A DNA stretch of 64,000 nucleotides from Nostoc linckia FACHB-104 (GTDB lineage Bacteria; Cyanobacteriota; Cyanobacteriia; Cyanobacteriales; Nostocaceae): contig NZ_JACJQJ010000001.1 of NCBI RefSeq assembly GCF_014696615.1, positions 62,001 through 126,000 on the forward strand, read 5' to 3'. Positions 5,072-38,440 of the stretch are shown here, piece after piece. The number at the start of each line of letters is the position of its first letter. Positions within the stretch are counted from its first letter, which is position 1. The notes under the pieces are model-generated. The model was not told where the DNA came from. It ran no database searches and saw nothing but the letters and a program-made list of their open reading frames with translations. Both the position numbers and the translations under genes were made by a program.

Positions 5072-5074
5072 GTA

Positions 5075-9967: not shown

Positions 9968-9983
9968 AGTGTTTTAAAACTTC

Positions 9984-10050: not shown

Positions 10051-10116
10051 AAGAAATAAATCATCGTAATAATAAATAATTGATTATTCTTACGATAATT
10101 AACAGCAAAAATATCA

Positions 10117-11256
10117 ATGTACAAACACATTAATTCACTTACTTCTCTGCGCGGTGTTGCAGCTTTATTTGTTGTTATCCATCATTTTTCTTACTACACA
10201 TTACCGAAAACTGGTTCAACTTTATCAACATATAGCAACTTTTTTCATAATGGATATTTGTGGGTTGACTTTTTCTTTATCTTAAGTGGTTTTATTATGA
10301 CCCACGTTTATGCCAGAGATTTTTCTGCAAAAGTGACTTCAGATAACTATCGCTCATACTTACTCTCACGTTTTGCCAGAATCTATCCTCTACATATCTT
10401 CATTTTGTCTTTATTCGTTGGATTGGAGATTTTCAAAACATTTTTAATTCATCATTCTGCATTCACAGGTAAGTTTAATTTAACAGCATTGTTTGCTAAT
10501 ATTTTTCTTCTCCAAGCCTTTGACCTCAATTGCCCGCCTTTATTTTGGTGTAATACTTATTGGAATGAACCTGCTTGGTCAATTAGCGTAGAATTTGTTA
10601 TTTACTGTATATTTCCATTTCTATTATTTTTTATATTAAAAAATAACTATAAGAATGATTTAATGATATATCTTTCTACTCTCGTGGGTATATTATTATT
10701 AATCACTTTTACCCGGGGAAATTTAGATAGTATCATCGGTGTACCTTCGATAGCTAGATGCGGACTAGAATGTGTACTTGGCATTATCACTTATAAAGTT
10801 TATCGCCGAGGTAATTATCAAAAATATTTCAATCTGAATTTACTGGCAATTATAGCTATAACTTGGATAATGCTGATTATGCATAATTACTGGCATCATT
10901 GGCGTAGCCTTCATGATTGGCTGATTTTACCAGGTTTTTCTCTACTAATTTTAGCTGTATCTGGCTATAACAATGGTGTGATATCAAAGTTTTTAAATTC
11001 ACAGTTAATGCTATATCTTGGGACAATATCTTACTCTATTTATCTAGTTCATTGGTTTATTCAAGATGTAATTAAATTTGTCTGGGGTTATAAATTTAAT
11101 GAAATTTTCGGACAAGGTTTTACTAGATTGGAAAATTTCTTCGCACTAGGAGTATTTATGATGATTACCTTATTAGCTGCATCACTCACATATAAATTCG
11201 TAGAAGTTCCTATGCGTAACTATTTAAAGTCAAAACTATTAGCTAACCAATATTGA
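10117..11256 (+). CDS. Membrane acyltransferase, acyltransferase-3 (OafA-like) family
   Basis: A 379-residue polytopic membrane protein. It opens with SLTSLRGVAALFVVIHHF, the typical first helix of acyltransferase-3 proteins with the essential His, followed by the LLSRFARIYPLH segment with the conserved Arg and by about ten hydrophobic helices. Family members transfer an acyl group from a cytoplasmic donor onto sugars, lipids or peptides. Its position inside cluster 1, in the same orientation between the PKS and an NRPS, suggests it acylates the product (O- or N-acylation, for example of the free amine made by the aminotransferase). The gene is more AT-rich than its neighbours and flanked by a small inverted repeat, so insertion into the cluster is possible. 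Confidence 0.8.
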   Translation: MYKHINSLTSLRGVAALFVVIHHFSYYTLPKTGSTLSTYSNFFHNGYLWVDFFFILSGFIMTHVYARDFSAKVTSDNYRSYLLSRFARIYPLHIFILSLFVGLEIFKTFLIHHSAFTGKFNLTALFANIFLLQAFDLNCPPLFWCNTYWNEPAWSISVEFVIYCIFPFLLFFILKNNYKNDLMIYLSTLVGILLLITFTRGNLDSIIGVPSIARCGLECVLGIITYKVYRRGNYQKYFNLNLLAIIAITWIMLIMHNYWHHWRSLHDWLILPGFSLLILAVSGYNNGVISKFLNSQLMLYLGTISYSIYLVHWFIQDVIKFVWGYKFNEIFGQGFTRLENFFALGVFMMITLLAASLTYKFVEVPMRNYLKSKLLANQY

Positions 11257-11325
11257 GCATCAGCAGTTTATCAAAGCAAGATTCAATCTAAACCATTAAA
11301 CAACCTGAGAAAATAAGAGATTTTT

Positions 11326-14300: not shown

Positions 14301-14607
14301 AAATTATGTTGCACCCCGCACTCCCATTGAGCAGCAGATTGCAGATATCTGGACGCAGGTTTTAAATGTCAAGCGGGTGGGGATTTACGATAACTTTTTT
14401 GAATTAGGTGGATATTCTCTTTTAGGAATTCAAGTAGTTTCTCGCCTGCGCCAAGCTTTGCAAGTAGAAATTTTAATGTCCAATTTATTTGAATTACCCA
14501 CAGTAGCAGATTTGGCTGAACGAGTGGAAACTCTGCGTTGGGCTACTCAAGGTATTCAAGCTGCTGAGAGTCATTCAGCAGATGATTACGAAGAAGGCGA
14601 GCTTTGA
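11326..14607 (+). CDS. NRPS module C-A-PCP (cluster 1)
   Basis: A 1093-residue single module. The C domain carries HHIICDGWSW (His160, His161) and should condense the beta-amino acyl chain from the PKS with the next residue. The A domain has YTSGSTGTPKG, NGYGPTE and NGKVDR; the pocket reads D-A-F-W-L-G-G-T-F-K, one conservative change from the classical valine code DAFWIGGTFK. The PCP Ser is Ser1031 in ELGGYSLLG. The A domain is strikingly similar along its length to that of the cluster's loading gene, which suggests a recent duplication or gene conversion. It starts 69 bases after the acyltransferase stop. The C domain follows an aminotransferase-bearing PKS, so it is expected to accept a beta-amino thioester donor. 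Confidence 0.9.
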   Translation: MTLSPVNLQSSLAAVDFDPFANGELLLTAPATESQKEIWASVQMGDAANCAYNESQSLRLKGKLDVTVFQSALQELVQRHEALRTTFSTDGNTLCIVGSLQIQIPTIDISSLELQEQQEKLASIRRQEVEKPFDLEHGPLFRAQIIKLQPQEHIAILTAHHIICDGWSWAVLMPDLGKLYSGLLEGIVPELDESDRLSDYAVLQEEEVDSPEAIATEQYWLEQFADSVPVLDFPCDRPRPPIRTFNAAREDWQLNSQLVADLKQLGSKFGCSFMTTILAGFEAWLHRITGQNDLVVGIPAAGQAALGQYNLVGHCVNLLPLRSQINGAQSFSEYLQSRRSTVLDAYDHQQFTFGSLVKKLSIPRDSSRIPLVPITFNIDQGLDSDKLPFSGLEVEFFSNPRSFENFELFINATELRGQLTLECQYNTNLFDADTIRRRMAEFETLLQGIVANPNQTIAKLPILPAVEQQLLAVWNQTQTNYPQDKSIHQLFEEQVARTPDAVALVFQGQQLTYRELNTRANQLAQYLQTLGVGADVLVGICVERSLEMVVGILGILKAGGAYVPLDPGYPQERLAFMLADTQIKLLVTQKRLVEKLPTHTANVICLDADWHTISQQAAKNLITNVKPENLAYVMYTSGSTGTPKGVSVIHQGVVRLVKETNYVSLNDKEVFLQISPISFDASTFEIWGCLLNGGKLVIFPPHTPSLDELGGIIQQYQVTTLWLTAGLFHLIVDEKIEALKPLRQLLAGGDVLSVPHVQKFLNTVENCKLINGYGPTESTTFTSCYEITAPLKPGASIPIGRPIANTQVYILDSHLQQVPIGITGELYIGGDGLAREYFNRPDLTAERFVLNPFSPDSQSRLYKSGDLARYLPNGEIEYLGRIDNQVKVSGFRIELGEIETALLQSPLVKEAVVIVREDSPGEKLLVGYFVAETGEDSSQIISELRRFLKQHLPEYMVPKIFVALEALPLNANGKVDRRALPKPEAYSPELEANYVAPRTPIEQQIADIWTQVLNVKRVGIYDNFFELGGYSLLGIQVVSRLRQALQVEILMSNLFELPTVADLAERVETLRWATQGIQAAESHSADDYEEGEL

Positions 14608-14739
14608 TATTCCCATAGCTAATACAGTTCGGTGAGGAAGGGGACAAGGAGACGAGGGGAGAAATGTCCATTACCAGTAAACCAATTACCCATTCCCCAT
14701 TCCTCACACAGCTATTTTCCACATTTTCCGCGAGGTTTT

Positions 14740-17700
14740 ATGAAAACATTGGATGAATTACTATCTGAGCTACGTCAACGTGATGTCAAACTTTGGTTAG
14801 AAGGAGAACGCCTGCGTTATCGGGCAGCAAAAGACAGCCTGACACCAGAATTGTTGAACGAGTTAAAAACGCAAAAAGCCGAAATTATCAACTTTCTGCG
14901 CCAAGTTACCACAGTTGCTAGTTCCAAAATTCCTCCAATTGTTGCTTGTGAACGAAATGGTAATTTGCCGCTTTCCTTTGGTCAGCAACGGATATGGTTC
15001 CTCCATCAGTTTGAACCCAATAGTTCCTCAAATAATATGCCAGTGGTGGTGCGGTTTACGGGGAATCTCAATGTTGCTGTATTAGAGGAAAGTTTGCGAG
15101 AAGTTGTCCGTCGCCATGAAGTGTTGCGGACAACTTTTCCGGCTGTGAATGGTAAGCCGACTCAAGTTATTGCCACAGATGTTTCCTTGACGCTACCAGT
15201 TATTGACTTGCAGCAAGTAGCAGATGAGCAACGGGAGACCGAAGCTCATATATTAGCAACCAAAGAAGCTCATCAACCCTTTGATTTAGCTAATGGGCCA
15301 ATTTTGCGAGTATTGCTGCTGAAGTTGAGCGATCGCGAACATCTGCTGATATGGAATATGCACTGTATAGTTTGTGATGGTGCTTCATCCGATGTCTTCT
15401 ATCAAGACTTCACTACTATCTATAAAGCACTGTCAGCTGGTCAGCCTTCACCGTTACCTCCTTTACCAGTTCAGTATGCTGATTTTACTCATTGGCAATA
15501 TCAGTGGCTCCAAGGAGAGGTTTTAGAGTCACAGGTAAACTATTGGAAGCAAAAGCTAGACGGCAATTTACCGATCATAGACTTACCTTACGATTATCCT
15601 CGTCCTCAAGGAGCGCAAACTTACCGAGGCGATCGCGCGGCGCTGTTACTACCAAAGGCACTCAACTATGCGCTGACAGACTTGAGTCAAAAATGGGGAG
15701 CCACCTTGTTTATGACTCTGCTGACAGTTTTTGAACTGTTGCTTTATCGCTATTCTGGACAAGAAGACCTACTAGTTAGCTTTGCTAGTGCTAGTCGGGG
15801 ACAAGTTGAAACCGAAAGACTGATTGGATTTTTCTCTAATACTTTGGTGCTGCGGAGTAATTTAGCAGGTAATCCCACTTTCCGAGAATTGTTAGACCGA
15901 GTACGTAAGGATTGTTTAGAGGCTTATAGCCATCAAGATTTACCTTTTGAAAGACTTATTGAAGAGCTTAAACCAGAACAACAAAGTCGTAATACTTCCT
16001 CGCTATTTCAAGTCAAATTCTCCCTCAATCCGCCTTGGTCAAATGGTCGTGGGATGGCATCGGTAGAACTACCTGATTTGACTATTACTTCTTTATTTGG
16101 CTATATCTATCATGGCAAGACTAAATACGATCTGACATTAGTATTGCGGGAACAGGATAATGGTCTGGGCATGGTATTCGACTACAATGCCGAGATGTTT
16201 GATGCTAGTACTGTAGAGCGGATGTTGGGACACTACAAAACTTTACTGGAAGGTATTGTTGCTAACCCAGATCAGCCGATTTCGGAATTACCGCTGTTAA
16301 CAGCCGGGGAACAGCAATTATTAGTTGATTGGCATGGGAAACAGGCTGATTATCCCCAAGATATTTGTATACATCAGTATTTTGAGGCTCAAGTTCAACG
16401 AACTCCTAATAATATTGCTGTCAGCTTTGCAAATCAGCAGTTAACCTATCAAGAACTTAATCACCGTGCAAATCAACTAGCTCACTATTTACAAACGGTA
16501 GGGGTAGGAGCCGGGGTAAACGTCGGTTTATATTTAGAGCCTTCCCTAGAAACGATTGTGGGGCTATTGGGAATTTTAAAAGCTGGCGGCACATCTGTTG
16601 CGATCGCTCCCACATCTAGGGCTGAGATTTTAGAATATCCTCAAGTATCTTTTCTCTTAACTCAAAGTTCCTTAGTTGAGAAACTTCCTGAGCATCAGGC
16701 AAAAATTATCTGTATAGATACAGAATTAACAAGTATCTCTCTGCACTCAACTGACAATCTAGTTTGTAGTGAAACCCGCTCAGAAATTCCTCTAGGAAAA
16801 GCGATCGCTAATACTCAAGTCTATATCCTCGACAAGCGATCGCAACTTTTACCCATCGGCGTGACTGGCGAAATCTACATCGGCGGTATCGGCATTACTC
16901 AAGGCTACTTCAACCTTCCTGAGTTAACATCTGAGAAATTTATTCCTAATCCTTTTAGCAGCGATTCTGGAGCATATCTTTATAAAACTGGTGACTTAGG
17001 ATGCTACTTAAGTGATGGCAATATTCAGTTTTTGGGAAGTTTAGATCATCAAGTCAAAAGTTCTCAAAATCTAACTAATACTCAAATAGAAAAAACATTT
17101 GTTCCCCCACAAGACTCATTGCAGATTCAGTTAACAGAAATTTGGCAGAATTTCTTAGGTATTCATCCAATTGGGATTACAGACAACTTTTTTGATTTGG
17201 GTGGACACTCACTAATTGCAGTCCGATTATTTGCTGAGATTGAAAAAACCTTTGGTAAAACTCTGCCTTTATCTATTCTTTTACAAGCACCAACTATTGA
17301 GCAATTCGCACATTTCCTACGCGATAAATCGCCAGTAAGCCAACCGAATAGTGAGCAACCGCTGCATTTAGTTAAAGACTTTTTTGGGAAAGCTATATCC
17401 AAAGTTTTCAAAGGCGAAAATTCACAACAAATTTCAGAGGAAAATCAAACCAATCTAGAGACAAGAGAATGGCTACCTTCCTCATCACTAGTACCACTAC
17501 AAACCAACGGTAAAAAGCTACCTCTATTTTGTGTTCATGGTGCTGGTGAAAGTGTGCTTTACTATCGTGATTTTGCTAAATATCTTGGTACAGACCAGCC
17601 AGTTTATGCATTACAAGCTATCGGTGTGGATGGTAAAAAAGCCCCCCTTACCCGTGTTGAAAAAATGGCGGCTCACTATATTAAGGAGATTCAAACTATT

Positions 17701-18315
17701 CAACCTCAAGGGCCTTATTTTTTAGGAGGTTACTCTTTTGGTGGTTTGGTAGTTTGGGAAATGGCTCGACAGCTAACCGCACAAGGTCAAAAAGTTGCTT
17801 TGTTAGCTTTATTTGATACTAGTAATACAACTCGTCTCCAGACTAATATCAAGCATATACCTACACAGAAGCGCATTTCTCGCCATTTGCATAACCTTTT
17901 AGAAATTGGACCTGAGTACATTCTTCAGCAAATAGAAGGTAAGCGCAGTTGGATTGATTATATGGTTAAACGAAAGCTAAATAAATTAACTTTCAAAGCT
18001 TATCTAAACATCTCTCGCTTTTTACCTTACACCTACCGAAAACAAGTAAAAATTAAAGATTTTAACAAACAAGCGGCTAAGGAATATGTTCCTAAAGCTT
18101 ATGTGGGTAGAGTTACTGTATTCCGAGCAGAAGAACGCCCTGCAAATAATGGAGGTGTGGTAGATCCAAACATGGGTTGGGGTGAATTGGCTTTAGGTGG
18201 TCTGGATATCCAACATGTTCCAGGAAACCACTTTTCAATTTTTAACGAACCCTATGTTAAATCTTTGTCAGAAAAAATGAAGGTTTGTATTGAACAAGCT
18301 ATGGCAAAGGCTTAA
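14740..18315 (+). CDS. Terminal NRPS, docking-C(degenerate)-A(truncated)-PCP-TE (cluster 1)
   Basis: About 1191 residues from the ATG at 14740; the frame is open upstream to 14632 but that stretch is repeat-like and not coding. It begins with a TubC-type N-terminal docking domain (MKTLDELLSELRQRDVKLWLE). The C domain has MHCIVCDG where MHHxxxDG is expected, so the catalytic second His is Cys209. The A domain keeps its N-terminal part (LTYQELN, GILKAGG) but jumps at about 16770 to IANTQVYILD, losing A3 to A5 (the ATP and substrate sites), and later lacks A10. PCP Ser824 (GGHSL) and the thioesterase (Ser999 in GGYSFGG) look intact. It can release the chain but should not activate an amino acid. 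The frame stays open, so it is probably a retained release module rather than a pseudogene. Confidence 0.88.
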   Translation: MKTLDELLSELRQRDVKLWLEGERLRYRAAKDSLTPELLNELKTQKAEIINFLRQVTTVASSKIPPIVACERNGNLPLSFGQQRIWFLHQFEPNSSSNNMPVVVRFTGNLNVAVLEESLREVVRRHEVLRTTFPAVNGKPTQVIATDVSLTLPVIDLQQVADEQRETEAHILATKEAHQPFDLANGPILRVLLLKLSDREHLLIWNMHCIVCDGASSDVFYQDFTTIYKALSAGQPSPLPPLPVQYADFTHWQYQWLQGEVLESQVNYWKQKLDGNLPIIDLPYDYPRPQGAQTYRGDRAALLLPKALNYALTDLSQKWGATLFMTLLTVFELLLYRYSGQEDLLVSFASASRGQVETERLIGFFSNTLVLRSNLAGNPTFRELLDRVRKDCLEAYSHQDLPFERLIEELKPEQQSRNTSSLFQVKFSLNPPWSNGRGMASVELPDLTITSLFGYIYHGKTKYDLTLVLREQDNGLGMVFDYNAEMFDASTVERMLGHYKTLLEGIVANPDQPISELPLLTAGEQQLLVDWHGKQADYPQDICIHQYFEAQVQRTPNNIAVSFANQQLTYQELNHRANQLAHYLQTVGVGAGVNVGLYLEPSLETIVGLLGILKAGGTSVAIAPTSRAEILEYPQVSFLLTQSSLVEKLPEHQAKIICIDTELTSISLHSTDNLVCSETRSEIPLGKAIANTQVYILDKRSQLLPIGVTGEIYIGGIGITQGYFNLPELTSEKFIPNPFSSDSGAYLYKTGDLGCYLSDGNIQFLGSLDHQVKSSQNLTNTQIEKTFVPPQDSLQIQLTEIWQNFLGIHPIGITDNFFDLGGHSLIAVRLFAEIEKTFGKTLPLSILLQAPTIEQFAHFLRDKSPVSQPNSEQPLHLVKDFFGKAISKVFKGENSQQISEENQTNLETREWLPSSSLVPLQTNGKKLPLFCVHGAGESVLYYRDFAKYLGTDQPVYALQAIGVDGKKAPLTRVEKMAAHYIKEIQTIQPQGPYFLGGYSFGGLVVWEMARQLTAQGQKVALLALFDTSNTTRLQTNIKHIPTQKRISRHLHNLLEIGPEYILQQIEGKRSWIDYMVKRKLNKLTFKAYLNISRFLPYTYRKQVKIKDFNKQAAKEYVPKAYVGRVTVFRAEERPANNGGVVDPNMGWGELALGGLDIQHVPGNHFSIFNEPYVKSLSEKMKVCIEQAMAKA

Positions 18316-19625: not shown

Positions 19626-21221
19626 TTAAGCAGTTCTAAACCGCGCTAACTCTTCACCAGTCTTGGCATCGTGGGCGTGAACTGTACATACTAAACAAGA
19701 GTCGAACGATCGCGCGACGTGACCTACTTCTACTGGATCTTTAGAATCGTAGATAGGTGTGCCGATTAAAGCTTCCTCAATTGGGCCGCGTGCGCCATTA
19801 CCATCGCGAGGGCCGATATTCCAAGTACCAGGGGCAATAACTTGGTAGTTCTTAATCTTACCGCCCTCTACTTCTACCCAGTGACACAGGGAACCCCGTG
19901 CGGCTTCGGTTCCACCCCATCCCTTACCATCTTTTTCTTGAGGTTTGATATACCAGGGGTCATTTAACTTAAATTCGCGCAAACAGTGTTCAGCTTGGCG
20001 GTAAAGCTTGACAATTTCGTGAACTCGTGCTAACTGACGCACATGAATGCTAGGGCCACCCATTTGCTTGAACACGTCTAAAATAAACCCGTCTTGGTGT
20101 TGCCAAGATTCACCGTGCTTACCACCTGCAACTAACTGACGTGCTAAGGGGCCTGCTTCTAAGCGTCCGAAGTCTTTGTGTAGGACTGCACTGGCCCAAG
20201 AATAGGCATTATCGAAGTCTTTTGTATTCTTTTGGATGGGATTAGTTGTGCGATCGCCTGGGTAAACATCGGCTGTACCTTCATCGTACCAAGAGTGAGT
20301 GGTATTCTCACGGGCAAAAGATGGGTGCATTAAAGTATGGGTGTCGCTGAAGCTGTCATAGACTCCACTTTTCATGATCATCGCTGCATTTCGCCCTTCA
20401 ATTGTGGGCTGTTGATATTTGTCCTCATGGGGTAAATATCCCCAAGTGACATATTTACCAACACCTGCACCGTATCTATCTAGACCAATATCTAAACCCA
20501 TGCGCCAATATAAACCCAAGTCGGATTCCCGATGCTTGCGGTCTTCATCTAGCCAATCCATGAAGTCATCATAAGTTTGAATTTCTTCGTAGCGTTCTAG
20601 AGAACAACCCAACCATACTGGTTCTAACCAGTTGGTACGGAAATATTCTAATAGTGACCAAGCGCGGGTAATGTCTGTGAGTGTGGGGGCGCACATCACA
20701 CCGCCAGGAACCATGTAACTAGAATGGGGCCATTGACCACCTAATAAAGCGTAAATTTCTACAGGTTTTGCAGAAATAGTCACACCTAGTTCGTAAGAGG
20801 TTCCTGTGAAAGCTGCAAAACGCTTGGTGGCTTCTTCATAAAACCGACTACTGCGGTACTTTTTATTAGTCAGGTCAATCGCAAATAGACCATAAAAATA
20901 GCGGGGTATACTTTGGATGGTTTCGACAATTTGACCTAAATTTCTCGCTAAAATCGCATTGCGTGGAACTTCTGTGCCCCAGAGTGTATCGAGTGCCCAA
21001 GATGCAGAAGTCAGGTGAGAACCACCGCAAATACCACAAATGCGAGGCGTAACGATTAATCCGGCTTGCGGGTCTTTACCACGGAGGATAATTTCAAATC
21101 CCCGGAAGAGTTCTGCATGAGTCCAGGCGTTAACTACATATCCGTCTTCAATTTCCACCCGGACATCTAAATCACCTTCTACTCTACCAACTGGCGAGAT
21201 GTCTAATGTTTGAATTGTCAT
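19626..21221 (-). CDS. hupL: Uptake [NiFe]-hydrogenase large subunit
   Basis: A 531-residue catalytic subunit that recycles H2 released by nitrogenase in heterocysts. The Ni-Fe ligands are present: RICGICGGSH (Cys62, Cys65) near the N-terminus and DSCLVCTVH (Cys509, Cys512) near the C-terminus. After His515 there are 16 further residues, the tail removed by the HupW protease during maturation in related systems. Full length and uninterrupted, unlike hupL of Anabaena PCC 7120, which carries the xisC element. It lies downstream of hupS with a ~110-base spacer of short tandem repeats, the normal hupSL order. Without intact hupS it should be non-functional until the operon is restored. Confidence 0.96.
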   Translation of the reverse strand: MTIQTLDISPVGRVEGDLDVRVEIEDGYVVNAWTHAELFRGFEIILRGKDPQAGLIVTPRICGICGGSHLTSASWALDTLWGTEVPRNAILARNLGQIVETIQSIPRYFYGLFAIDLTNKKYRSSRFYEEATKRFAAFTGTSYELGVTISAKPVEIYALLGGQWPHSSYMVPGGVMCAPTLTDITRAWSLLEYFRTNWLEPVWLGCSLERYEEIQTYDDFMDWLDEDRKHRESDLGLYWRMGLDIGLDRYGAGVGKYVTWGYLPHEDKYQQPTIEGRNAAMIMKSGVYDSFSDTHTLMHPSFARENTTHSWYDEGTADVYPGDRTTNPIQKNTKDFDNAYSWASAVLHKDFGRLEAGPLARQLVAGGKHGESWQHQDGFILDVFKQMGGPSIHVRQLARVHEIVKLYRQAEHCLREFKLNDPWYIKPQEKDGKGWGGTEAARGSLCHWVEVEGGKIKNYQVIAPGTWNIGPRDGNGARGPIEEALIGTPIYDSKDPVEVGHVARSFDSCLVCTVHAHDAKTGEELARFRTA

Positions 21222-21330: not shown

Positions 21331-22245
21331 CTAAATTGTGAAAATGTCTTCTTCTGCCCAAGGTGGTGCTATGTCTTTGGCTACCATTGTCAGTAAGGCA
21401 TAGTCTTTTGCTTTGACTCCTGGTGGTAGTTCTTTGGGAACTCCCATGACAGTTTGAGTTTTAAATACGGTTCCTGGCTTGAGGTCGTAGAAGGGGAATT
21501 CTGGTTCAGTACATCCTAAACAGGGCATACCTGCACGGGTTTTAGAAGAAACCCGATTCCACAAAATACGGTTGCAGGAAGAGTGGGTCATGGGGCCGCG
21601 ACAACCTAAATCGTAGAATAGGCAGCCTTTGCGTTGACCAAATTCCACAGTAGATGCTTTGTAAGCAAAGTGGACGTTACGGGTACAACCGATTTGGGTG
21701 TAGCTTTTAAAGAAGGTTTGTGGACGATTGAGTTCGTCTAAGGTAATATCGCCTAAGCGTCCGGTGGCGATCGCCACTAAAATTTGACTAATCCAATCAG
21801 GATGGGCGGGACATCCGGGAATGTTAATTACGGGTAAGCCAGATTTGGTGCGGAAGTCTGTGCCAAAAAAACCACCTGGTTCACGCTTGAGGAATTGCAA
21901 TCCTTGGGATTCGCTAGGATTGGGTGACATAGCAGGAATACCTCCCCAGGTAGCACAGTCTCCTACAGCCACAATAAAACTAGCAGCTTGGGCGAGGTCT
22001 GTTAACCAATCTTTCATGGGGCGTTCGGCAAAGCGGTTCCATTCACCTGTGCCGTTGGGGGCGTTGACAACACTACCTTCAAAAACCAAGATATCTAGGG
22101 GAATTGTCCCGGAAATGCAATCTTGGAGTAGTTGTTGTAAATTATCGCCCAGTTCCACACCCAGGGAGGGATGCCAAAGTATTTTAATGCCAAAGTCAGC
22201 TATTAAATCGCATACTGTCGGTTCTTCAGCGTTGAGAAAGGACAT
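21331..22245 (-). CDS. hupS: Uptake [NiFe]-hydrogenase small subunit, 5' end missing (interrupted gene)
   Basis: 304 residues from MSFLNAEEPTVCDL to EEDIFTI, the Fe-S electron-transfer subunit of the uptake hydrogenase. All cluster-binding Cys regions from VCDLIADFG onward are present (for example GDCATWGG, PGCPAHPDW, CRGPMTHSSCNRILWNR, GMPCLGCTEPEFPF). From memory, intact cyanobacterial HupS is about 320 residues and begins with an extra ~16 residues containing LWLQGGACSGNT, whose Cys is a proximal-cluster ligand. Here homology stops at the Met, and the frame continues upstream (to 22341) into unrelated sequence over the recombinase start. I conclude the gene is split by an inserted element and gives no working HupS in this DNA form. 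No hup promoter is present here; it would be with the missing 5' piece. Confidence 0.9.
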   Translation of the reverse strand: MSFLNAEEPTVCDLIADFGIKILWHPSLGVELGDNLQQLLQDCISGTIPLDILVFEGSVVNAPNGTGEWNRFAERPMKDWLTDLAQAASFIVAVGDCATWGGIPAMSPNPSESQGLQFLKREPGGFFGTDFRTKSGLPVINIPGCPAHPDWISQILVAIATGRLGDITLDELNRPQTFFKSYTQIGCTRNVHFAYKASTVEFGQRKGCLFYDLGCRGPMTHSSCNRILWNRVSSKTRAGMPCLGCTEPEFPFYDLKPGTVFKTQTVMGVPKELPPGVKAKDYALLTMVAKDIAPPWAEEDIFTI

Positions 22246-22247
22246 AT

Positions 22248-22260
22248 TATAGTCACTATA
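22248..22260. other. Palindrome at the hupS/element border
   Basis: TATAGT-C-ACTATA, a perfect 6-base inverted repeat centred on one base, lying 2 bases outside the first preserved hupS codon. It may be part of the recombinase recognition site or the recombinase promoter. A TATTC pentamer (the known fdxN-element crossover sequence) occurs next to it on the - strand at 22261-22265, but crossover there would not restore the HupS GNT-MSF junction. Confidence 0.4.
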
Positions 22261-22277
22261 GAATAAATTTTGGCAAT

Positions 22278-23816
22278 ATGGGCGAAAAATGGTTTTATGG
22301 TCGGGTTTCGACGATTGAACAACAAGAGGATCGCAACGCACTCAAGAAACAGCTAGAAAGGGGTAAGAATGTCGGATGCGATCGCTTTTATTGGGATATT
22401 CAAAGTCGCACCACGGAAGTGCGGACTGGGTTACAGCAATTAATTGATGATTTAAAAATATCGCCCAAGGGTACTGTCAGCGATTTAGTGGTTACCAGAA
22501 TTGACCGCATTGGGTCATCATCAAAACTGTTTTACTCGTTGCTAGAAGTATTACGCAGTAAAAGTATCAAGCTAGTAGCACTCGACCAAACCATAGATAC
22601 AGAAAGTCTGGGTGGTGAGTTGACGATAGATATCTTGCTAGCTGCGAGTAAATTTGAAATCAAAATGTTATCCAGCCGTGTATCTGCTGAACGCAAGCAT
22701 CGTATGATTCAGCGGAAAAGCCATAGGTTTGCACCCTTTGGCTGGAAGGTAATGAATGATAGTTATGTTAAAGATGAAAGCTGGTGCGTTTCTCTAATAG
22801 AGGGGAAAAGAAGTTTTAAAGTTTGGGAATTGGCTTTATTCATATTTGAAATATTTGATAGTTGCGGTAGTGTGAGAAAAACCTGCAATATCTTAAATGA
22901 GTTGTTTGGGGTAAGCGGGAAAGTAGACGCAAAGAGTAAAAAATTAAAAGATAATCATCGAATTATGCCTGATGATATCGAGCAATTTGATTTATTACAA
23001 AATCAGAGAAAAACTTATCAAAGATACCCTTGGACTGGCTTACAATGGTCGCCAGCTGGGTTAAAAAATTTCTTAGTTAATCCCGTACACGCAGGTGGAA
23101 CACCATTTAACGTCACCACATCCAGTCCATCAGGTAAACAAATTAACCATTTCGATCAATGGGATTGCAATTGGAATACCCATGAAGGGATAATTAGCCG
23201 CGAACAACACGAACAAATCAAACGCCAGATTCGCCAAAATCGCAATAATAAATGGGCTGCACGTCAAGAAGATATCAACCCATTTGCTAATTTATTGAAG
23301 TGTAGTAGATGTGGCGGCGCATTAACTCGCATGTCATCCCGACGCGATCGCAATGGACAATATACAGCCTACTATCAATGTACTTACTATGCTCTCAGAC
23401 GTTGCGATGCCAAAGAGATGCTGAATAGTCACAGTTTAGATGCTCAGGTGGCTGATTTGCTAGTTAATGAAGCTACTAGACTAGCAGGAATGGTAGATTT
23501 TGAGGAAAATAAAAATCCTGAACCAAAAGAAGTGCAAGAACTGCGCGAAAGTTTAGCAGCATTGGAGAAGATACCTAGTAATGCTTTTGTAGAAAAAGCC
23601 AAAGATGGTATCCGTGAGCAAATTGCTAATATCTTAAGTCTCCACGAAAACATCACAAACCGTAGCTTGTTGGTACGAGAAGAGTTAGTGCAAATGTTCC
23701 GCGATCGCGAATACTGGGAAAGCCGCACATCAGAGGATAAAAAACGGATGCTAAATAAACTTATCCGTCGTATTGTTGTTGATGGACGGGTTGTTTTGGG
23801 TATTGAGTTTCTTTAG
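22278..23816 (+). CDS. Large serine recombinase, XisF-like (element excisase)
   Basis: 512 residues. The N-terminal resolvase domain starts WFYGRVSTIEQ with catalytic Ser11, and has DLVVTRIDRIGSS and the ASKFEIKMLSSRVSAERK helix. The recombinase domain follows (FAPFGW...GLQWSPAGLKNFLVNPVHAG), then a zinc ribbon (Cys342, Cys345, Cys368, Cys376) and a C-terminal coiled coil. Size and layout match XisF, the site-specific recombinase that excises the fdxN element of Anabaena PCC 7120 in developing heterocysts; XisA and XisC are tyrosine recombinases and do not fit. It is divergent from the broken hupS, starting 33 bp from its edge, exactly where an element's own recombinase would sit. No xisH/xisI-like helper genes were seen nearby. 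Confidence 0.92.
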   Translation: MGEKWFYGRVSTIEQQEDRNALKKQLERGKNVGCDRFYWDIQSRTTEVRTGLQQLIDDLKISPKGTVSDLVVTRIDRIGSSSKLFYSLLEVLRSKSIKLVALDQTIDTESLGGELTIDILLAASKFEIKMLSSRVSAERKHRMIQRKSHRFAPFGWKVMNDSYVKDESWCVSLIEGKRSFKVWELALFIFEIFDSCGSVRKTCNILNELFGVSGKVDAKSKKLKDNHRIMPDDIEQFDLLQNQRKTYQRYPWTGLQWSPAGLKNFLVNPVHAGGTPFNVTTSSPSGKQINHFDQWDCNWNTHEGIISREQHEQIKRQIRQNRNNKWAARQEDINPFANLLKCSRCGGALTRMSSRRDRNGQYTAYYQCTYYALRRCDAKEMLNSHSLDAQVADLLVNEATRLAGMVDFEENKNPEPKEVQELRESLAALEKIPSNAFVEKAKDGIREQIANILSLHENITNRSLLVREELVQMFRDREYWESRTSEDKKRMLNKLIRRIVVDGRVVLGIEFL

Positions 23817-24532: not shown

Positions 24533-24583
24533 CCGATCTGCCTACAGCCCTTAGAACTATCCTTGCTCAAACTTGGCGACGTT

Positions 24584-26380
24584 ATGAACATCGGTTTAAA
24601 ACCATATGGCAATTTATTCATAAAATATCTCAAGCCTCAAAAGTGGCGCTTAGCCAAGTTTGCGATCGCTCTATTAGCTGGTATCGGCTTGCAACTCCTC
24701 AACCCACAAATCTTACGTAATTTCATTGATACAGCTGTAACAGGTGGTTCAACACAGAACTTATTTCTCGCTGCATTTCTATTTATTGGTGTAGCTTTAA
24801 TGACACAATTAATATTAATTGCAGCTACATATTATGGCGAAAATGTTGCTTGGACAGCTACTAATGCCCTACGTGCTGATTTAGTAGAACATTGCCTAAA
24901 ACTTGATTTATCTTTTCACAAAATTACTACACCTGGTGAATTAGTAGAAAGGGTGGATGGAGATATTCACAACCTTTCGCAATTTTTTTCAAAATTTAGT
25001 GTTTATATCTTAGGTAGTTTGTTGCTAATACTGGGTGTAATTGTGGTCATGTTCGCTGAAGATTGGCGAGCGGGTTTAGCTATTTCATTTTTCGCTCTCA
25101 CTGCTTTATCTACTTTAATTCGTTTGCGCTCTATTGCAGTTCCCTATTGGGGAAATTATCGCCAAATCAATGCAGAGTTTTTTGGATTTTTGGGTGAGCA
25201 ACTAACTGGAATTGAAGACATTAGAGCAAATGGTGCTAAAAATTATGTGATGCACCGCTTCTATAAAATTCTCCAACGCTGGTTGCCAACATATCACAAA
25301 GCAAGGTTTGCTGACACAATTCTCTGGGTAACAACTAATGGTATATTCACCTTAGGTAATGTCATTGCTTTAACTGTCGCTCTCTACCTTTGGAATCAAA
25401 AAGCAATCACTATTGGCACTGCATATATATTTTTTTACTATACTAATCTTTTAAGTGAACCAATCGAGCAGATTCGTACTCAGTTAGAAGATTTGCAACA
25501 AGCAGAAGCCAGTATTTATCGGATTCAAGACTTATTTCAACTGCAATCACAACTAACTGCAGAAGGAGAAGAGTTACTTCCTAATGGTGCGCTTAGTGTG
25601 ACATTTGAAAATGTCTCATTTAGTTATACAGATGTCTCAGGAGAAGCTGCTACTGACGTACGCATCAACAAGCAAGATCCCCAACCAGAATTAATCCTCC
25701 AAGATATATCTTTCCATTTACCTGCTGGTCATGTATTAGGGCTATTAGGACGTACAGGTAGCGGTAAAACCACATTAGCGCGTTTATTACTCAGGCTATA
25801 TGACGCACAATTAGGCACAATTCGTTTAGGAAATGTGCTTATAAAAGAGGCTCATTTAACAGACTTACCCAAACACGTCGGACTAGTAACTCAGAACGTA
25901 CAGCTATTTCAAACCACTGTCCGCAACAATCTCACCTTTTTTAACCAAAATATTAGCGACAATCGCATCTATGACACCTTGGATATGCTGGGATTATCTT
26001 CATGGCTAAATTCATTATCCAGAGGCTTAGATACTGAATTAGGCCCTGATAGTAGCGGCTTATCAGCAGGACAGGCGCAATTATTAGCATTTGCTCGTGT
26101 TTTTCTTAAAAACCCTGGTCTAGTAATTTTAGATGAAGCATCCTCGCGCCTTGATCCAGCAACAGAAAAACTCATTGAAAAAGCTATAGACCAATTGTTG
26201 GTGGGGCGTACTGGCATAATTATTGCTCACCGATTAGCAACCGTACAAAGAGCAAATCAAATTCTGATTTTAGATAAAGGTCGAGTCAGCGAATATGGAT
26301 GGCGAGCAGAATTAATTAATAATTCCCATTCACGCTTTGCACAATTACTCCAGACTGGCTTAACAGATTTATTAGTGTAA
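24584..26380 (+). CDS. ABC exporter half-transporter (TMD-NBD), consensus ATPase site
   Basis: 598 residues from the ATG used here; a TTG seven codons upstream is less likely. About six N-terminal membrane helices, then a nucleotide-binding domain: Walker A GRTGSGKTT (Lys395), signature LSAGQ, Walker B VILDEASS (Asp517, catalytic Glu518) and H-loop IIAHR. With the next gene it should form a heterodimeric type IV exporter. The altered signature LSAGQ (for LSGGQ) would face the Walker motifs of the partner, which is also degenerate. Placement next to a siderophore receptor and an NRPS cluster suggests export of the peptide; such pairs serve this in other cyanobacteria. Confidence 0.88.
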   Translation: MNIGLKPYGNLFIKYLKPQKWRLAKFAIALLAGIGLQLLNPQILRNFIDTAVTGGSTQNLFLAAFLFIGVALMTQLILIAATYYGENVAWTATNALRADLVEHCLKLDLSFHKITTPGELVERVDGDIHNLSQFFSKFSVYILGSLLLILGVIVVMFAEDWRAGLAISFFALTALSTLIRLRSIAVPYWGNYRQINAEFFGFLGEQLTGIEDIRANGAKNYVMHRFYKILQRWLPTYHKARFADTILWVTTNGIFTLGNVIALTVALYLWNQKAITIGTAYIFFYYTNLLSEPIEQIRTQLEDLQQAEASIYRIQDLFQLQSQLTAEGEELLPNGALSVTFENVSFSYTDVSGEAATDVRINKQDPQPELILQDISFHLPAGHVLGLLGRTGSGKTTLARLLLRLYDAQLGTIRLGNVLIKEAHLTDLPKHVGLVTQNVQLFQTTVRNNLTFFNQNISDNRIYDTLDMLGLSSWLNSLSRGLDTELGPDSSGLSAGQAQLLAFARVFLKNPGLVILDEASSRLDPATEKLIEKAIDQLLVGRTGIIIAHRLATVQRANQILILDKGRVSEYGWRAELINNSHSRFAQLLQTGLTDLLV

Positions 26381-26437: not shown

Positions 26438-28267
26438 ATGTTATCAGCAAACAAAAAAGTCCAAGGCTGGAAATTACTATGGAACCTCATTTGCTATCAA
26501 CCAAAACTCTATATAATTGACTCTTGCTTTTGGATTTTAATTACGGGGTTGCCTGCAATACCTGGGTTAATTATCAAAGAGTTTTTCGACAGCCTTACAG
26601 GTCAAGCTCAATTTGCGTTAACACCTGTAGCTTGGATTGCATTATTATTGGCTCTTAATTTAGGACATATTGGCACAATATTTGTAGGGCGATTAACCAA
26701 AACTCAGCACCGTTTCACTATGAGTTCTTTGCTGCGAAGAAATTTGTTAGAACGCCTATTAAACAATCCTAATGCTCAACCTGTAATTGTTCATAGTGAG
26801 GCAGAACAAGCTTTATCTCAAGGTGAAATTATTAGTTATTTCCGTGATGATGCTCAACAAATAGAAGACAATGTGGCATGGGTATCAGAACTGTTGGGAG
26901 AAGCAATATTTGCTATTCTTTGTCTTGTAATTTTATTCAGCGTTAATCCTCAAATGACCTTATTTGTGTTTCTACCTTTAGTAGGCACGATCGCAATTAT
27001 TCAAAAAGCAGAAACATACATCAAACGTTACCGCCAAGCTAGCCGTCAAGCAACAGAAAAAGTCACAGGTATTTTAGGCGAAATATTTAGTTCAGTGCAA
27101 GCAATTAAAGTCGCTGGTGCTGAACAAGATGTGCTGCATCATTTTCGCAATCTCAACGACAAACGTCGTCAAGTGATGGTAAGAGATAGCTTATTAAATG
27201 CCATGTTAGATTCCGTATTTCAAAACATGGTGAATTTAGGCACTGGTTTGATTTTGCTTTTAGCTTCTGTATTAATTCAGCGTCAAACGAGTAACCTGAC
27301 TGTAGGTGACTTTGCATTATTTATTTATAATCTTGCCTTTGTCACTGGTTTTTTTAACTCTTTGGGGAGATTTATGGCATTGTACAAGCAAACCGAAGTC
27401 TCCTTTGAACGCATGACAGCTTTGCTTGCTGGTGCGACAGCAGAAACTTTAGTAGCTAAAAATCCACTTTATCTAAAAAATCTGCGCGATGAGCTACACC
27501 ACACCATAAGCGATCGCCAACCATCACTTCCACTCTTGGAACAACCGCAAATAAAAGAGAACCTAAAATTATTAACTATATCTCACCTGACTTACTATTA
27601 TCCTGGTACTTACCAAGGAATTACAGATATTAGCTTTGAAATACAGCGTGGTAGTTTAACTGTAATTACTGGTCGCATTGGTGCTGGTAAAACTACACTG
27701 CTACGAGTTTTACTAGGATTATTACCCAAGCAATCAGGTGCTATTTATTGGAATAGGCGACTAGTTGAAGACCCAGCTAATTTTTTTACACCACCTCGTA
27801 GTGCTTATACTCCTCAAATTCCTCAATTGTTTAGTTATACCTTAAGAGAAAATATTTTACTAGGTCTACAAAAAGATGATTTTGAAATTGAAAATGCCCT
27901 GACAATGGCTGTCTTTGAACAAGATTTGGCTAGCATGAATAACAGAATGGAAACTTTAGTAGGAGCAAAAGGAGTCAAATTATCTGGTGGACAAATGCAA
28001 CGTTTAGCCGCCGCTAGAATGTTTGTTCGTCAACCAGAATTATTAGTTTTTGATGACCTGTCTAGCGCGTTAGATGTAGAGACAGAATTAGCTTTATGGT
28101 CACGGATATTTAACAATAAAAGTGAAAAACCAACTTGTCTGGTAATTTCTCATCGGCGTTCTGTATTACGCCGTGCTGACCAAATAATTGTGATGAAAGC
28201 AGGTCGAATATCAGCACAAGGAAAGTTTGATGAAATTATTAGTCAAGGTCAAGAATTGAAATTTTAA
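26438..28267 (+). CDS. ABC exporter half-transporter (TMD-NBD), degenerate ATPase site
   Basis: 609 residues with an N-terminal six-helix membrane domain and an NBD: Walker A GRIGAGKTT (Lys418), intact signature LSGGQMQRLAAARM, Walker B LVFDDLSS and H-loop VISHR. The catalytic Glu after the Walker B Asp539 is Asp540, so this half likely forms the non-hydrolysing site, as in known heterodimeric exporters. It starts 57 bases after its partner and they form one operon. The gene ends about 110 bases from the convergent binding-protein gene. Substrate assignment (lipopeptide siderophore) is inference from neighbourhood. Confidence 0.88.
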   Translation: MLSANKKVQGWKLLWNLICYQPKLYIIDSCFWILITGLPAIPGLIIKEFFDSLTGQAQFALTPVAWIALLLALNLGHIGTIFVGRLTKTQHRFTMSSLLRRNLLERLLNNPNAQPVIVHSEAEQALSQGEIISYFRDDAQQIEDNVAWVSELLGEAIFAILCLVILFSVNPQMTLFVFLPLVGTIAIIQKAETYIKRYRQASRQATEKVTGILGEIFSSVQAIKVAGAEQDVLHHFRNLNDKRRQVMVRDSLLNAMLDSVFQNMVNLGTGLILLLASVLIQRQTSNLTVGDFALFIYNLAFVTGFFNSLGRFMALYKQTEVSFERMTALLAGATAETLVAKNPLYLKNLRDELHHTISDRQPSLPLLEQPQIKENLKLLTISHLTYYYPGTYQGITDISFEIQRGSLTVITGRIGAGKTTLLRVLLGLLPKQSGAIYWNRRLVEDPANFFTPPRSAYTPQIPQLFSYTLRENILLGLQKDDFEIENALTMAVFEQDLASMNNRMETLVGAKGVKLSGGQMQRLAAARMFVRQPELLVFDDLSSALDVETELALWSRIFNNKSEKPTCLVISHRRSVLRRADQIIVMKAGRISAQGKFDEIISQGQELKF

Positions 28268-28379: not shown

Positions 28380-29381
28380 TTATGGAACTAAATATTTAAA
28401 TAAATCATCAATAACCGCATTTGCAGCTAAAATACCGCCTCCAATCCAGTATTCTGGAACTATATAAACTTTATTTTGTTGTACGGCTTTTAAATTCTGC
28501 CACAATGGATTTGAATTAAGTTGCTCTATTTTCTTTTTTGCTGTTTGGTTAGCTTCATTAGTATTTTCGGCAGTCCAGATAAATATGACATCACCATCTG
28601 CTTTTTGCGTTAACTCATTACCAATAGAAACTTGAATTGAATTATTAAATAATTTTTCTGCTTCTAAGTCTATGAAATTTTGGGATTCCGGACGAGATAA
28701 ACCAGCATCTTGCAAAATAGTTCCGCAGAAAGAATCACGGAGATAAAGGTTGATATTATTTGGATAAACGCGCACTACAGAAATTTTGATGTTTGATATA
28801 TTATTGCCCATGCGCTGCTTAAATTCCTCGAGGCGTAGGTAATAGCTTTCCATCAATTTTTGGCCAAGTTCTTTCTTACCTAATGCCACACTAATATTAG
28901 TAAATACTTCTTTCCATTTACCGCTATGTTCAAAATTAAATAAAACTGTAGGAGCAATTTTTGCAGCCATATCATAAATATATTGTCGGTAGTCAAAGCC
29001 TAAAATAAAATCTGGTTTGAGTGTAAGGATGCTTTCTATATTAGGTTCACCGAATGTGCCAATATTTTTCACTTTCACAAACTCATTTTGTAAATAGGAA
29101 GAATATTCAGGGATAACGCTACCAACAGGTTGAATACCTAGCGCGATCGCATTTTCAAATGAAGTGTCATCTAGAGTCACCAGTCGCTGAAAGTTTTCTG
29201 GAATACAACTGATTCCCGCAGCGTGTTCGACATGACGACAAGCTGCGTTTGGACTGCGATCGCTAACAGGTAAAGAACCACCACGATGACAAGCTACAGC
29301 AAGCAATAGAGTACAAAATAATGTAATTCCAAAACGCACCCAGCGAGTAAAGCTCTTAATTTTGATATAACTGTCATTCAT
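28380..29381 (-). CDS. Iron-siderophore ABC substrate-binding lipoprotein (FecB-like)
   Basis: About 333 residues from the ATG used here; an ATG five codons upstream is possible. It has a signal sequence with LLLAVAC as the probable lipobox, then a periplasmic binding protein of the TroA/FecB class: RLVTLDDTSFENAIALGIQPVG, NIESILTLKPDFILG and a C-terminal ..NPLWQNLKAVQQNKVYIVPEYWI.. segment typical of the family. It binds ferric siderophore in the periplasm and hands it to a permease; no FecC/FecD/FecE genes are in the window. It lies 27 bases downstream of the TonB receptor, so the two are one operon. Confidence 0.9.
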   Translation of the reverse strand: MNDSYIKIKSFTRWVRFGITLFCTLLLAVACHRGGSLPVSDRSPNAACRHVEHAAGISCIPENFQRLVTLDDTSFENAIALGIQPVGSVIPEYSSYLQNEFVKVKNIGTFGEPNIESILTLKPDFILGFDYRQYIYDMAAKIAPTVLFNFEHSGKWKEVFTNISVALGKKELGQKLMESYYLRLEEFKQRMGNNISNIKISVVRVYPNNINLYLRDSFCGTILQDAGLSRPESQNFIDLEAEKLFNNSIQVSIGNELTQKADGDVIFIWTAENTNEANQTAKKKIEQLNSNPLWQNLKAVQQNKVYIVPEYWIGGGILAANAVIDDLFKYLVP

Positions 29382-29408
29382 GATGGCATCCCCCACACCT
29401 GATTTTCG

Positions 29409-32063
29409 TTAAAATTCAATCGCAAACGAACCAATCAAAGTTAAAGGTTCACCGTAATAGACACCTAAACGACTACTATCAGAACCAGTAAAATAGGTAT
29501 TATCAAAGAGGTTGCGAATATTTAAAGCAGCTCTCCAGTTATCGCGCTTATAAAAGACCGATGCATCGGTACGGACATAGCTAGGAAGAACATAGCTATT
29601 GTCTAAATCGCCAAAGCGATCGCCAACAAAAAATAATCCTAATCCGAATCCCAACCCCCGCAGACTTCCTTGCTGCATTTCATAACTTGTCCACAAACTT
29701 GCTGCGTGTTCTGGGATATTATCTCGACGGCGACCTTCCAGTCCACTAGTATCTTTGCTAACAAAAGCATCAATGTAAGAATAAGATGCAATTACTTTCC
29801 AACCAGGGGTAATTTCCCCAGCAATATCAAATTCAATACCTCGACTTGTCTGTTCCCCAGTTTGAATTTGGTCGTTGGGATCGGATGAATTGGGATCATC
29901 AGTAGTCACATTTTGCTTGCGGAGATCATACAACGCTAAAGTTGCGCTCAAGTTGGGGGTAATATCAGCTTTTACACCCACTTCAAATTGTCTACCTGTT
30001 TCTGGTTTAAATGCTTCACCATTACCATTGCGACTTGTACCAAAACTCGGTTCAAAAGAGGTTGCATAAGATGCGTAGAGCGAGATATTTTGAGATGGTT
30101 GATAAACTATTCCCAGGCGAGGGCTAAAGTTACTATCAGATTGAGTAAATTCTTCCTTTTCTTCACCTAAACTCTGGACAGTGCGAGTTTGATCAAAAAT
30201 ATCAAATCTACCGCCTGCTAATAATTTCAATTGGGGATTAATTTCGATTTGGTCTTGAATATAAAATCCATATTTATCAATATTAGCTTCGCGAAAGAAA
30301 TTTAATATTTCTACTTTGGGATATTCTAAGCGAGTGTAAACTGGGTTAAATATATTAATAGATGGGTAGGATTCAAAATCTCCAAAAAGAGCATCCTCAG
30401 TGACTTTAGTATAGTCAAACCCCAAAACAAGTTGATGTTTAATTGAGCCTGTGGAGAATTTTCCTACTACATCTGTTTGCACTGTATAAGCATTATCCCG
30501 ACGCTCAGAATAATAACTTAATCTACTTAATTCACCTGTTTCTTCATCGAGAGAATCCCTTAAAGGATAGTAGCGGTCTAAATTGACAAATTGAGCGCGG
30601 AAAGCATTCCTAATTTTCCATTGTTCGCTGAACTTATGATCGAGTAAATAACTAAAATTAGTTACATTTATTTGCACATTTTGGAACGGTTCGCCTAAAA
30701 AACGTTCCCGTGGTAAATTTGCAGGACGATTACCTATTGCTACCGTCCCATCATCTGCTGTTCGTGTTTCTTCCAGCCAGGAACCATCTATAGTTAAATT
30801 GGTGTTAGCACCAAGAGCAAACTTTAATTTTGGGGCAAAAAACAAACGCTCTGAATTTACAAAATCACGAAAACTCCCAGCATTCTCATAAAAAGTATTG
30901 AAACGATAAAGTACGCTGCCATCATCACGTAATGGCCCCGATAAATCCAGCGCACCTCTATAGGAACTAAAACTACCAATAGTTCCCTCAAACGAAGAAA
31001 ATGGTTGAGCTAGAGGTTGTTTACTAACTAAATTAATCAAACCACCTGGAGGTGCATCCCCAAACAACACTGATGCTGGGCCTTTCAGCACTTCGATACG
31101 TTCAACATCAGCTGTTTCAATCAAGCCACCATAAAACAGATAGGAACGCAGTCCATCCCGAAATATATTTGCATTGAAACCACGTAAAGAAAAATATTCA
31201 CTAAAACCCTGATAGTAACCAGCGCTAGTAGAACCACTCACATTTCGCAATGCATCTTGGACACGAATTGTAGCTTGGTCTTTGAGGACTTCTCGGGGAA
31301 TTACTTGAATTGATTGAGGGATATCACGAATAGCTGTATCTGTTTTGGTGGCGCTTGATGCTTCTTCTGCACGATAACCACTCTCTTCACCTGTCACTAC
31401 CAATTCAATAGGGTCTTCATTTTTAGGTGTTTCTGCTGTGGGTGCTGCTGGAGGTTTTTCTGTGGTTGGTATTTCTGTAGGAAGTTGCTGTGCTGGTGGC
31501 GCTTGACTAGTAGATGCTGTTGGTGTCACTCCAAAAATTAAACCTTCATCACCATCAAACAACTCAACTTTGGGTATGCTACTTTCACCTACCACTGTCA
31601 CCCGGATTGTATTAGCATCCAGGTTAGTCACAGTAATTGTTGTAATTCCTGTAAATGGTTTTTCTTGACTAAAAGCATCTCTAGAAGCTAGTCGCAATTG
31701 AGCATTGGGAATATCTGCAATAAAGTTATTTCCCTCACTCTTACTTACAGGTTGGAGCTGATCTCCTTGAGTCGTTTCTAAAATAATCTCTAGTTGTTGC
31801 TCGCCTGAGTTTAGTTTGACTCCGGTAACTTGCACAACCTCTGGCGCTTGAACGAGTTTTTGTGCGCTTCTGAGGGGGGTTTCAACTTCACTTAGCTGCC
31901 ATATCTTGTTTAAAGGCGCACTTAACCAATTTGCATTATCAGTTGATAAGCCTTCTTGCTGCTTTTGCGTAACTTTAGTCTCATTACTCCAAGCAGGAGT
32001 TGCTAAAAACCAAAAAACTGAGCTTGTAATTAATAGGCTTTTCAATAACATCTGTGGTTTCAT
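29409..32063 (-). CDS. TonB-dependent siderophore receptor with AMIN domain
   Basis: 884 residues. Signal peptide (about 1-26, ending TPAWS), an AMIN-type domain (about 75-175), a Pro/Thr-rich linker (about 180-215), a TonB-box-like IELVVTGE, a plug (IRDIPQSIQVIPREVL, VEVLKGPASVLFGDAPPGGLIN-type motif) and a 22-strand barrel ending in Phe. This is the cyanobacterial form of FhuA/IutA-like receptors. It imports a ferric siderophore across the outer membrane. A good Shine-Dalgarno (GAGAGGA) precedes the ATG. It is divergent from the NRPS operon, sharing a ~1-kb control region with Fur-like motifs, which supports one iron-regulated locus. Confidence 0.95.
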   Translation of the reverse strand: MKPQMLLKSLLITSSVFWFLATPAWSNETKVTQKQQEGLSTDNANWLSAPLNKIWQLSEVETPLRSAQKLVQAPEVVQVTGVKLNSGEQQLEIILETTQGDQLQPVSKSEGNNFIADIPNAQLRLASRDAFSQEKPFTGITTITVTNLDANTIRVTVVGESSIPKVELFDGDEGLIFGVTPTASTSQAPPAQQLPTEIPTTEKPPAAPTAETPKNEDPIELVVTGEESGYRAEEASSATKTDTAIRDIPQSIQVIPREVLKDQATIRVQDALRNVSGSTSAGYYQGFSEYFSLRGFNANIFRDGLRSYLFYGGLIETADVERIEVLKGPASVLFGDAPPGGLINLVSKQPLAQPFSSFEGTIGSFSSYRGALDLSGPLRDDGSVLYRFNTFYENAGSFRDFVNSERLFFAPKLKFALGANTNLTIDGSWLEETRTADDGTVAIGNRPANLPRERFLGEPFQNVQINVTNFSYLLDHKFSEQWKIRNAFRAQFVNLDRYYPLRDSLDEETGELSRLSYYSERRDNAYTVQTDVVGKFSTGSIKHQLVLGFDYTKVTEDALFGDFESYPSINIFNPVYTRLEYPKVEILNFFREANIDKYGFYIQDQIEINPQLKLLAGGRFDIFDQTRTVQSLGEEKEEFTQSDSNFSPRLGIVYQPSQNISLYASYATSFEPSFGTSRNGNGEAFKPETGRQFEVGVKADITPNLSATLALYDLRKQNVTTDDPNSSDPNDQIQTGEQTSRGIEFDIAGEITPGWKVIASYSYIDAFVSKDTSGLEGRRRDNIPEHAASLWTSYEMQQGSLRGLGFGLGLFFVGDRFGDLDNSYVLPSYVRTDASVFYKRDNWRAALNIRNLFDNTYFTGSDSSRLGVYYGEPLTLIGSFAIEF

Positions 32064-38418: not shown

Positions 38419-38440
38419 TTTAGCAGGTTATTTGTTAATT

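Follow-up and report, generated by a model that had tools for sequence, protein, structure and literature searches.

A 76.9-kb element splitting hupS in Nostoc linckia FACHB-104, probably of the developmentally excised kind, carries a putative siderophore locus

The uptake hydrogenase gene hupS lacks its first codons in the stretch of Nostoc linckia FACHB-104 DNA analyzed here, and foreign DNA adjoins the break. This raises the question of whether the gene is dead or is interrupted by an element of the kind removed during heterocyst differentiation, and of what the interrupting DNA brings with it. The stretch, hereafter the window, comprises 64,000 nucleotides (C1:62001-126000) of a 9.39-Mb draft assembly of 181 contigs, denoted G000 in the genome comparisons below. 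An earlier note, made from the letters of the window, had claimed foreign DNA in hupS. An element is indeed present, but the more unusual fact, a putative siderophore locus in its 77-kb cargo, had been overlooked.

As that note stated, the window translation shows HupS homology beginning abruptly at MSFLNAEEP, with the 16 N-terminal codons absent (Table 1). The note proposed a search of the genome for the missing fragment, whose absence it would have counted against an excisable element. A degenerate WLQGGACSGN pattern gives two matches in the whole assembly, at C1:161137-161165 (-) and C102:76037-76065 (-). The second lies inside an intact second hupS; the first is an orphan N-terminal hupS piece on the same contig and strand as the C-terminal part and 76.9 kb away from it, so that the sought fragment does exist in the expected orientation. 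When the flanks are fused at the repeat AGAAAGGACAT, the result is MTNVLWLQGGACSGNT-MSFLNAEEP..., a single frame running through the end of HupS. This 11-bp repeat has only two copies in the 104 kb of joined sequence searched on the + strand (C1:62001-166000). Inverted arms, recognized by eye, stand just inside it at both ends of the element (CTATAGAATAAA / TTTATTCTATAG) and would fit recombinase half-sites, as expected at such inner ends. The element is far larger than the earlier note had given it, spanning window 22235-64000 and on to C1:161132.

Table 1. Features of the split hupS locus and its element (window positions unless prefixed C1)
Feature	Position	Strand	Remarks
hupL	19626-21221	-	531 aa, uninterrupted, downstream of hupS
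hupS 3' part	21331-22245	-	304 codons from MSFLNAEEP, plus stop
Direct repeat, copy 1	22235-22245		AGAAAGGACAT
Element body	22246-64000, on to C1:161121		76,887 bp in total, including one repeat copy
Inner-end inverted-repeat arm	22246-22275		..CTATAGAATAAATTTTG pairs with CAAATTTTTATTCTATAG.. of the other end; by eye
Large serine recombinase	22278-23816	+	512 aa; oriented away from hupS, toward the element interior
Two ABC exporter genes	24563-26380, 26438-28267	+
Periplasmic binding protein	28380-29396	-	Peripla_BP_2; best NCBIfam matches are iron-siderophore binding proteins, below cut-off
TonB-dependent siderophore receptor with AMIN domain	29409-32063	-	TIGR01783, 397 bits (cut-off 223.5)
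NRPS	33109-38418	+	two AMP-binding domains (first taken as fatty-acyl-AMP ligase), one condensation, two carrier domains
PKS module	38432-43045	+	KS, AT, KR, carrier
Luciferase-like monooxygenase	43116-44204	+	TIGR04020, 500 bits
NRPS	44211-48938	+	C-A-PCP-C
TauD-family dioxygenase	48950-49963	+	candidate aspartate beta-hydroxylase, substrate predicted
Three NRPS genes	49995-54563, 54569-57853, 57853-62523	+
Terminal NRPS with reductase domain	62520-64000, on to joined coordinate 66968	+
Direct repeat, copy 2	C1:161122-161132 (L001 1486-1496)		AGAAAGGACAT
hupS 5' part	C1:161133-161180, outside the window	-	16 codons, MTNVLWLQGGACSGNT

The locus thus has the features by which heterocyst elements are recognized: a gene in two pieces of the same orientation, direct repeats that bracket the intervening DNA and restore the frame at their joint, and a recombinase inside at one end. 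Hence, the layout of a developmentally excised element, which the earlier note had proposed, fits the split gene, the same-strand N-terminal piece, the 11-bp repeat, the in-frame joint and the border recombinase alike. We regard the 76.9-kb interruption as very probably an element of the kind removed during heterocyst differentiation, with excision and its confinement to heterocysts predicted from this anatomy. The serine recombinase encoded at the border would recombine the two AGAAAGGACAT sites, most likely in differentiating cells; the element would be released as a circle and hupS rejoined in frame, so that the small subunit of the uptake hydrogenase could be made. A cell excising it would lose the siderophore genes from its chromosome, with its vegetative neighbors keeping them. 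That the layout is an artefact of assembly, with unrelated contigs fused, is hardly credible even for a draft in so many contigs, as the layout recurs in the congener G018 (77.4 kb, within an 8.5-Mb contig) and, in shorter form, in two others, G013 and G014, within contigs of 8.4 and 9.0 Mb.

The recombinase combines the Resolvase, Recombinase and Zn_ribbon_recom domains of Pfam. The earlier note had placed a large serine recombinase reading away from the break at a distance of 33 bp; it is there and so oriented, with its ORF starting 32 bp from the break. Its description as XisF-like is fair, in that a 51%-identical recombinase of the same genome (C169) adjoins a gene read as nifS, a position that we take to be that of the fdxN element and XisF. 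Identity to plasmid genes annotated xisF is 23-24%, the reference here being those plasmid genes and not XisF of PCC 7120. The names nifS, nifU and nifE are our own readings of the translations. At L174 2406-6401 (C169), the 51%-identical recombinase reads away from the gene read as nifS, probably marking an fdxN-site element, and at L175 7163-11633 (C111) a gene read as NifE ends prematurely next to a 468-aa serine recombinase, probably marking a nifE element. A second relative of the hupS recombinase (43%, C111) lies about 1 kb from that shortened nifE. A recent phage integrase was ruled out as the source of the enzyme: the phage collection yields 15 matching records, none covering more than 80% of the protein, and the eight of these 15 that are listed are 23-34% identical and span at most 67% of it.

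Matches to the recombinase at E <= 1e-60 occur in 66 of 217 family genomes, and in 20 of these the match is 64-100% identical over the protein. The N- and C-terminal pieces of hupS are apart in all 20 genomes with a recombinase of at least 64% identity—on one contig in the same orientation in 11, on different contigs in eight and in opposite orientation in one. In the three congeners without the recombinase (G012, G016 and G017; 3/3), the pieces are four bases apart. The 11 complete elements, 7.5 to 104 kb in size, break hupS at the same codon, give or take one. Their exact junction repeats measure 11 bp in G000, G013, G014 and G184, 9 in G079, 8 in G131 and 7 in G186; these come from a common-substring search that is meaningful in seven of the 11 elements. 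For the remaining four (G018, G037, G060 and G194), the search settled on unrelated letters; by eye, their ends have a core of just 3-6 bp in common. The recombinase (Xis) and hupS trees group alike at the genus level, a broad pattern from trees whose Xis data have faulty or incomplete rows for G190 and G169 and none for G194, and whose hupS rows for G012, G184, G186 and G190 are shortened or run into foreign codons at the end. In G169 (C3:485038-589973), the oppositely oriented hupS halves with the recombinase between them resemble an inversion inside the element.

An intact second hupS was the other finding that the earlier note would have held against an excisable element, and such a copy does exist. 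This second hupSL is unbroken, with hupS (320 aa) at C102:75118-76080 and hupL (531 aa) at 73386-74981 (L007 9119-10081 and 7387-8982); it is 84% identical to the first in hupL and 86% in the hupS C-terminal part, and the neighboring genes are duplicated too. Hence, excision is not strictly required for hydrogen uptake in this strain. We nevertheless reject the idea that the paralog refutes the element, on two grounds. A second hupS is found in only four of the 20 element-bearing genomes (G000, G013, G015 and G018, and not in G014), and the remaining 16 have the split hupS alone at E <= 1e-60, so that the element must be removable there if the uptake hydrogenase is to work. Further, NG86 comparisons of the split C-terminal part with four congeners give dN/dS pairs of 0.0071/0.1905, 0.0086/0.1478, 0.0079/0.2126 and 0.0014/0.0650, a ratio of about 0.02-0.06, by which the split gene is evidently under purifying selection. 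Upstream of the split hupS, a simple GTA-type pattern search for NtcA-type sites gave no match; upstream of hupS2 it gave two poor ones.

The same observations bear on two other explanations of the split. In one, a mobile, genomic-island-like integrative element would have landed in hupS by chance and would leave it rarely and outside any developmental program, with hupSL2 supplying the hydrogenase. The paralogs in four genomes agree with it, as does the variation of cargo between relatives. So does the divergence between G015 and G000, where a dS of 0.43 in the recombinase exceeds the 0.065 in hupS and thereby suggests horizontal exchange of the element end. However, most bearers have no other hupS at that threshold, the split copy appears to be still selected, the same site is used across genera, and related recombinases stand beside the gene read as nifS and near the broken gene read as nifE, which would be expected where developmental elements are present; we consider chance integration unlikely. 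In the other, hupS would be a pseudogene, dead since a permanent disruption. Here, apart from the intact paralog in G000, one can point to the relatives in which the C-terminal part is broken anew (by a ~1.8-kb insert in G186 as well as in G190, and by loss of homology near codon 285 in G184). Against this, the reading frame of each piece is open in G000 and continues across the joint, the C-terminal part has no inner stop there or in the three congeners with complete elements, and dN is far below dS against all four congeners, making a dead gene a very improbable reading. A developmentally removed element remains our preferred explanation.

The second breaks deserve separate mention. Removing the hupS element alone would leave the gene non-intact in G184, G186 and G190, where the C-terminal part is thus broken a second time. 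At L137 14553-15944 (G186), the insert splitting the hupS 3' part holds one 463-aa ORF, transposase-like by eye, and the G190 gene is split alike. HupS homology stops at codon ~282-285 in both L142 1985-2953 (G012) and L130 2332-3198 (G184), which points to another site of insertion in hupS. In G190 (L143 11448-19351), hupL is split too, at codon ~166-171 and by ~6.3 kb, besides the split hupS.

We next consider what the element carries. It has 40 called ORFs of at least 75 aa, and 37 of these were scanned against Pfam. Past the terminal NRPS listed in Table 1 are genes for an aminotransferase, a cupin-type protein, an MFS exporter, a thioesterase, TonB, ExbB, ExbD and a penicillin-amidase-family protein, the sole NCBIfam match of which is PvdQ, below cut-off. 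The far part of the element codes for LuxR, TPS, sigma-like, DUF1822, AAA_35, CHASE2/CHAT and DUF928 proteins. Synthetase genes and siderophore transport genes adjoin each other, which is the rule by which an NRPS-metallophore cluster is called. Taken together, the cargo looks like a full lipopeptide siderophore locus that includes genes for export and uptake, its product and the hydroxylation of Asp being predictions from domain content. The candidate beta-hydroxylase is assigned to the level of the TauD family, a CyanoBH_Asp-type clade lying below that resolution. A separate NRPS/PKS cluster with A-PCP, PKS with aminotransferase, acyltransferase and NRPS genes occupies window 2969-18315, outside the element and just past hupL.

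Comparison with the four element-bearing congeners shows that this block is not a constant part of the element: G018 has a different cassette between the same borders, G015 probably a third (its contigs are broken), and G013 and G014 none. Collinearity with G013 (Nostoc carneum NIES-2107), at 94%, ends at 23,973 and is regained at 70,973, at 87%; with G014, it ends at 23,970 (94%) and is regained at 70,948 (86%). Thus, a ~47-kb block of synthetase, receptor and exporter genes is absent from both; their thioesterase, TonB/ExbBD and amidase genes are retained, with 77-100% protein identity where the sequences align. The corresponding interval of G018 (~49 kb) holds another siderophore-type locus, with a receptor 44%, a first NRPS 65% and a TauD protein 55% identical and one 1.6-kb stretch of DNA at 79%; its shared element genes outside the cassette are 87-98% identical. 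In G015 (Calothrix membranacea FACHB-236), a contig with ExbBD and the amidase at 98-100% runs into the apparent third version (first NRPS 67%, receptor 46%), and we infer from these backbone genes that the contig belongs to the element. The closest relative of the G000 cluster is in G106, a member of another genus (receptor 77%, first NRPS 82%, TauD 86%), and G013 and G014 have relatives of the G018 cassette at sites outside the element (receptor 89%). Because the family search with the FAAL-NRPS matches 208 of 217 genomes and is too unspecific for counting clusters, it was used for identities only. From these comparisons, we read the differences between relatives as likely marks of exchange of cassettes at a fixed place.

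Receptor genes provide a wider view. TonB-dependent receptors (PF00593) are present in five of the 11 complete hupS elements (G000, G018, G037, G184 and G186) versus 0.32 expected, and 11 of 71 receptor matches fall inside complete elements versus 0.42 expected; of the 71 rows, one is below cut-off (a split gene in G079) and one, in the G184 element, is a 122-aa fragment. No PF00593 receptor is found in the complete elements of G013, G014, G131, G079, G060 and G194. Since these six of the 11 are receptor-free, siderophore cargo is no general property of hupS elements. The enrichment has P ~4e-6 when genomes are treated as independent (5/11), P ~0.001-0.002 by genus (3/7) and P ~9e-5 without G000 (4/10); in the other genera alone, it is P ~0.001 by genome (3/7) and P ~0.02 by genus (2/6). 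These values are from a test conceived after the G000 cargo was seen, with genome sizes rounded except for G000 and contig ends ignored, and cover 11 of the 20 element-bearing genomes, the eight contig-broken elements and the inverted one standing outside it. As a control, 11 non-hupS recombinases in six of these genomes have a single receptor within 77 kb, itself inside a neighboring hupS element. Among the eight contig-broken elements, the stretches read inward from the recombinase in G106 (~56 kb) and G073 (~17 kb) have no siderophore locus, and G015 has one on the contig placed in the element by its backbone genes. Two TonB-dependent receptor genes are found in G000, one of them in the element.

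These patterns raise a tentative possibility: that the hupS element has been selected as an exchangeable platform for acquiring iron. Its two ends, one with the recombinase and the other with TonB/ExbBD/acylase, would stay fixed as siderophore cassettes between them are replaced, and programmed excision would strip siderophore synthesis and uptake from heterocysts—scavenging would then be left to vegetative cells alone, enforced by DNA loss. Alternatively, the cargo may simply be a passenger at an insertion site of long standing. Excision of the kind that the anatomy predicts would remove from heterocysts one of the two TonB-dependent receptor genes found in G000; heterocyst nitrogenase and hydrogenase need iron, and such a loss, if true, bears on how iron is delivered to these cells. 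Whether heterocyst elements are helpful or selfish is stated as open in the consulted text of Hilton, Meeks and Zehr 2016 (PMC4874684), and a siderophore cargo that differs between close relatives and is over-represented in hupS elements offers a concrete host benefit to test in that question.

Among known systems, the closest are the four hupS elements, in two variants, described in PMC4874684. According to that paper, heterocyst elements average 41.5 kb and the largest approaches 1 Mb, and each of 22 ortholog groups includes at least one element with a reported serine recombinase. The earlier note took hupS as target and a serine recombinase as border enzyme to set this layout apart; both are present here, but both are already in print in that account. 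As far as that account goes, the present element is like those in target gene, direct repeats and border recombinase, and differs in its siderophore cargo: a word search of the main text gives no siderophore, NRPS, nonribosomal or TonB. The consulted portions of PMC3610870 and PMC6616624 make no link of heterocyst elements or hupS to siderophores, and in the open-licence literature we found no publication joining the two. The fdxN element of Anabaena PCC 7120, with XisF, is alike in its large serine recombinase and unlike in its target gene; further, the 37 scanned element ORFs (out of 40 of at least 75 aa) give no match to XisH or XisI here. XisC of the hupL element is a tyrosine recombinase. 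That element is in the same operon and follows the same logic, to judge from the portion of PMC3610870 consulted, with the other subunit being the target here, and the hupL elements given there are of 7.6 and 10.5 kb versus the 76.9 kb of the present one. With the cyanochelin-type lipopeptide clusters, as presented in the parts of PMC12628792 and PMC12971057 at hand, the cluster here has in common the fatty-acyl ligase start, PKS, NRPS and putative Asp beta-hydroxylase; it is distinguished from them by the reductase domain of its terminal NRPS and the aminotransferase gene that comes next, and by its location inside a putatively excisable element. Hence, the hupS element itself is of a known kind, and the exchangeable siderophore cassette is the new part.
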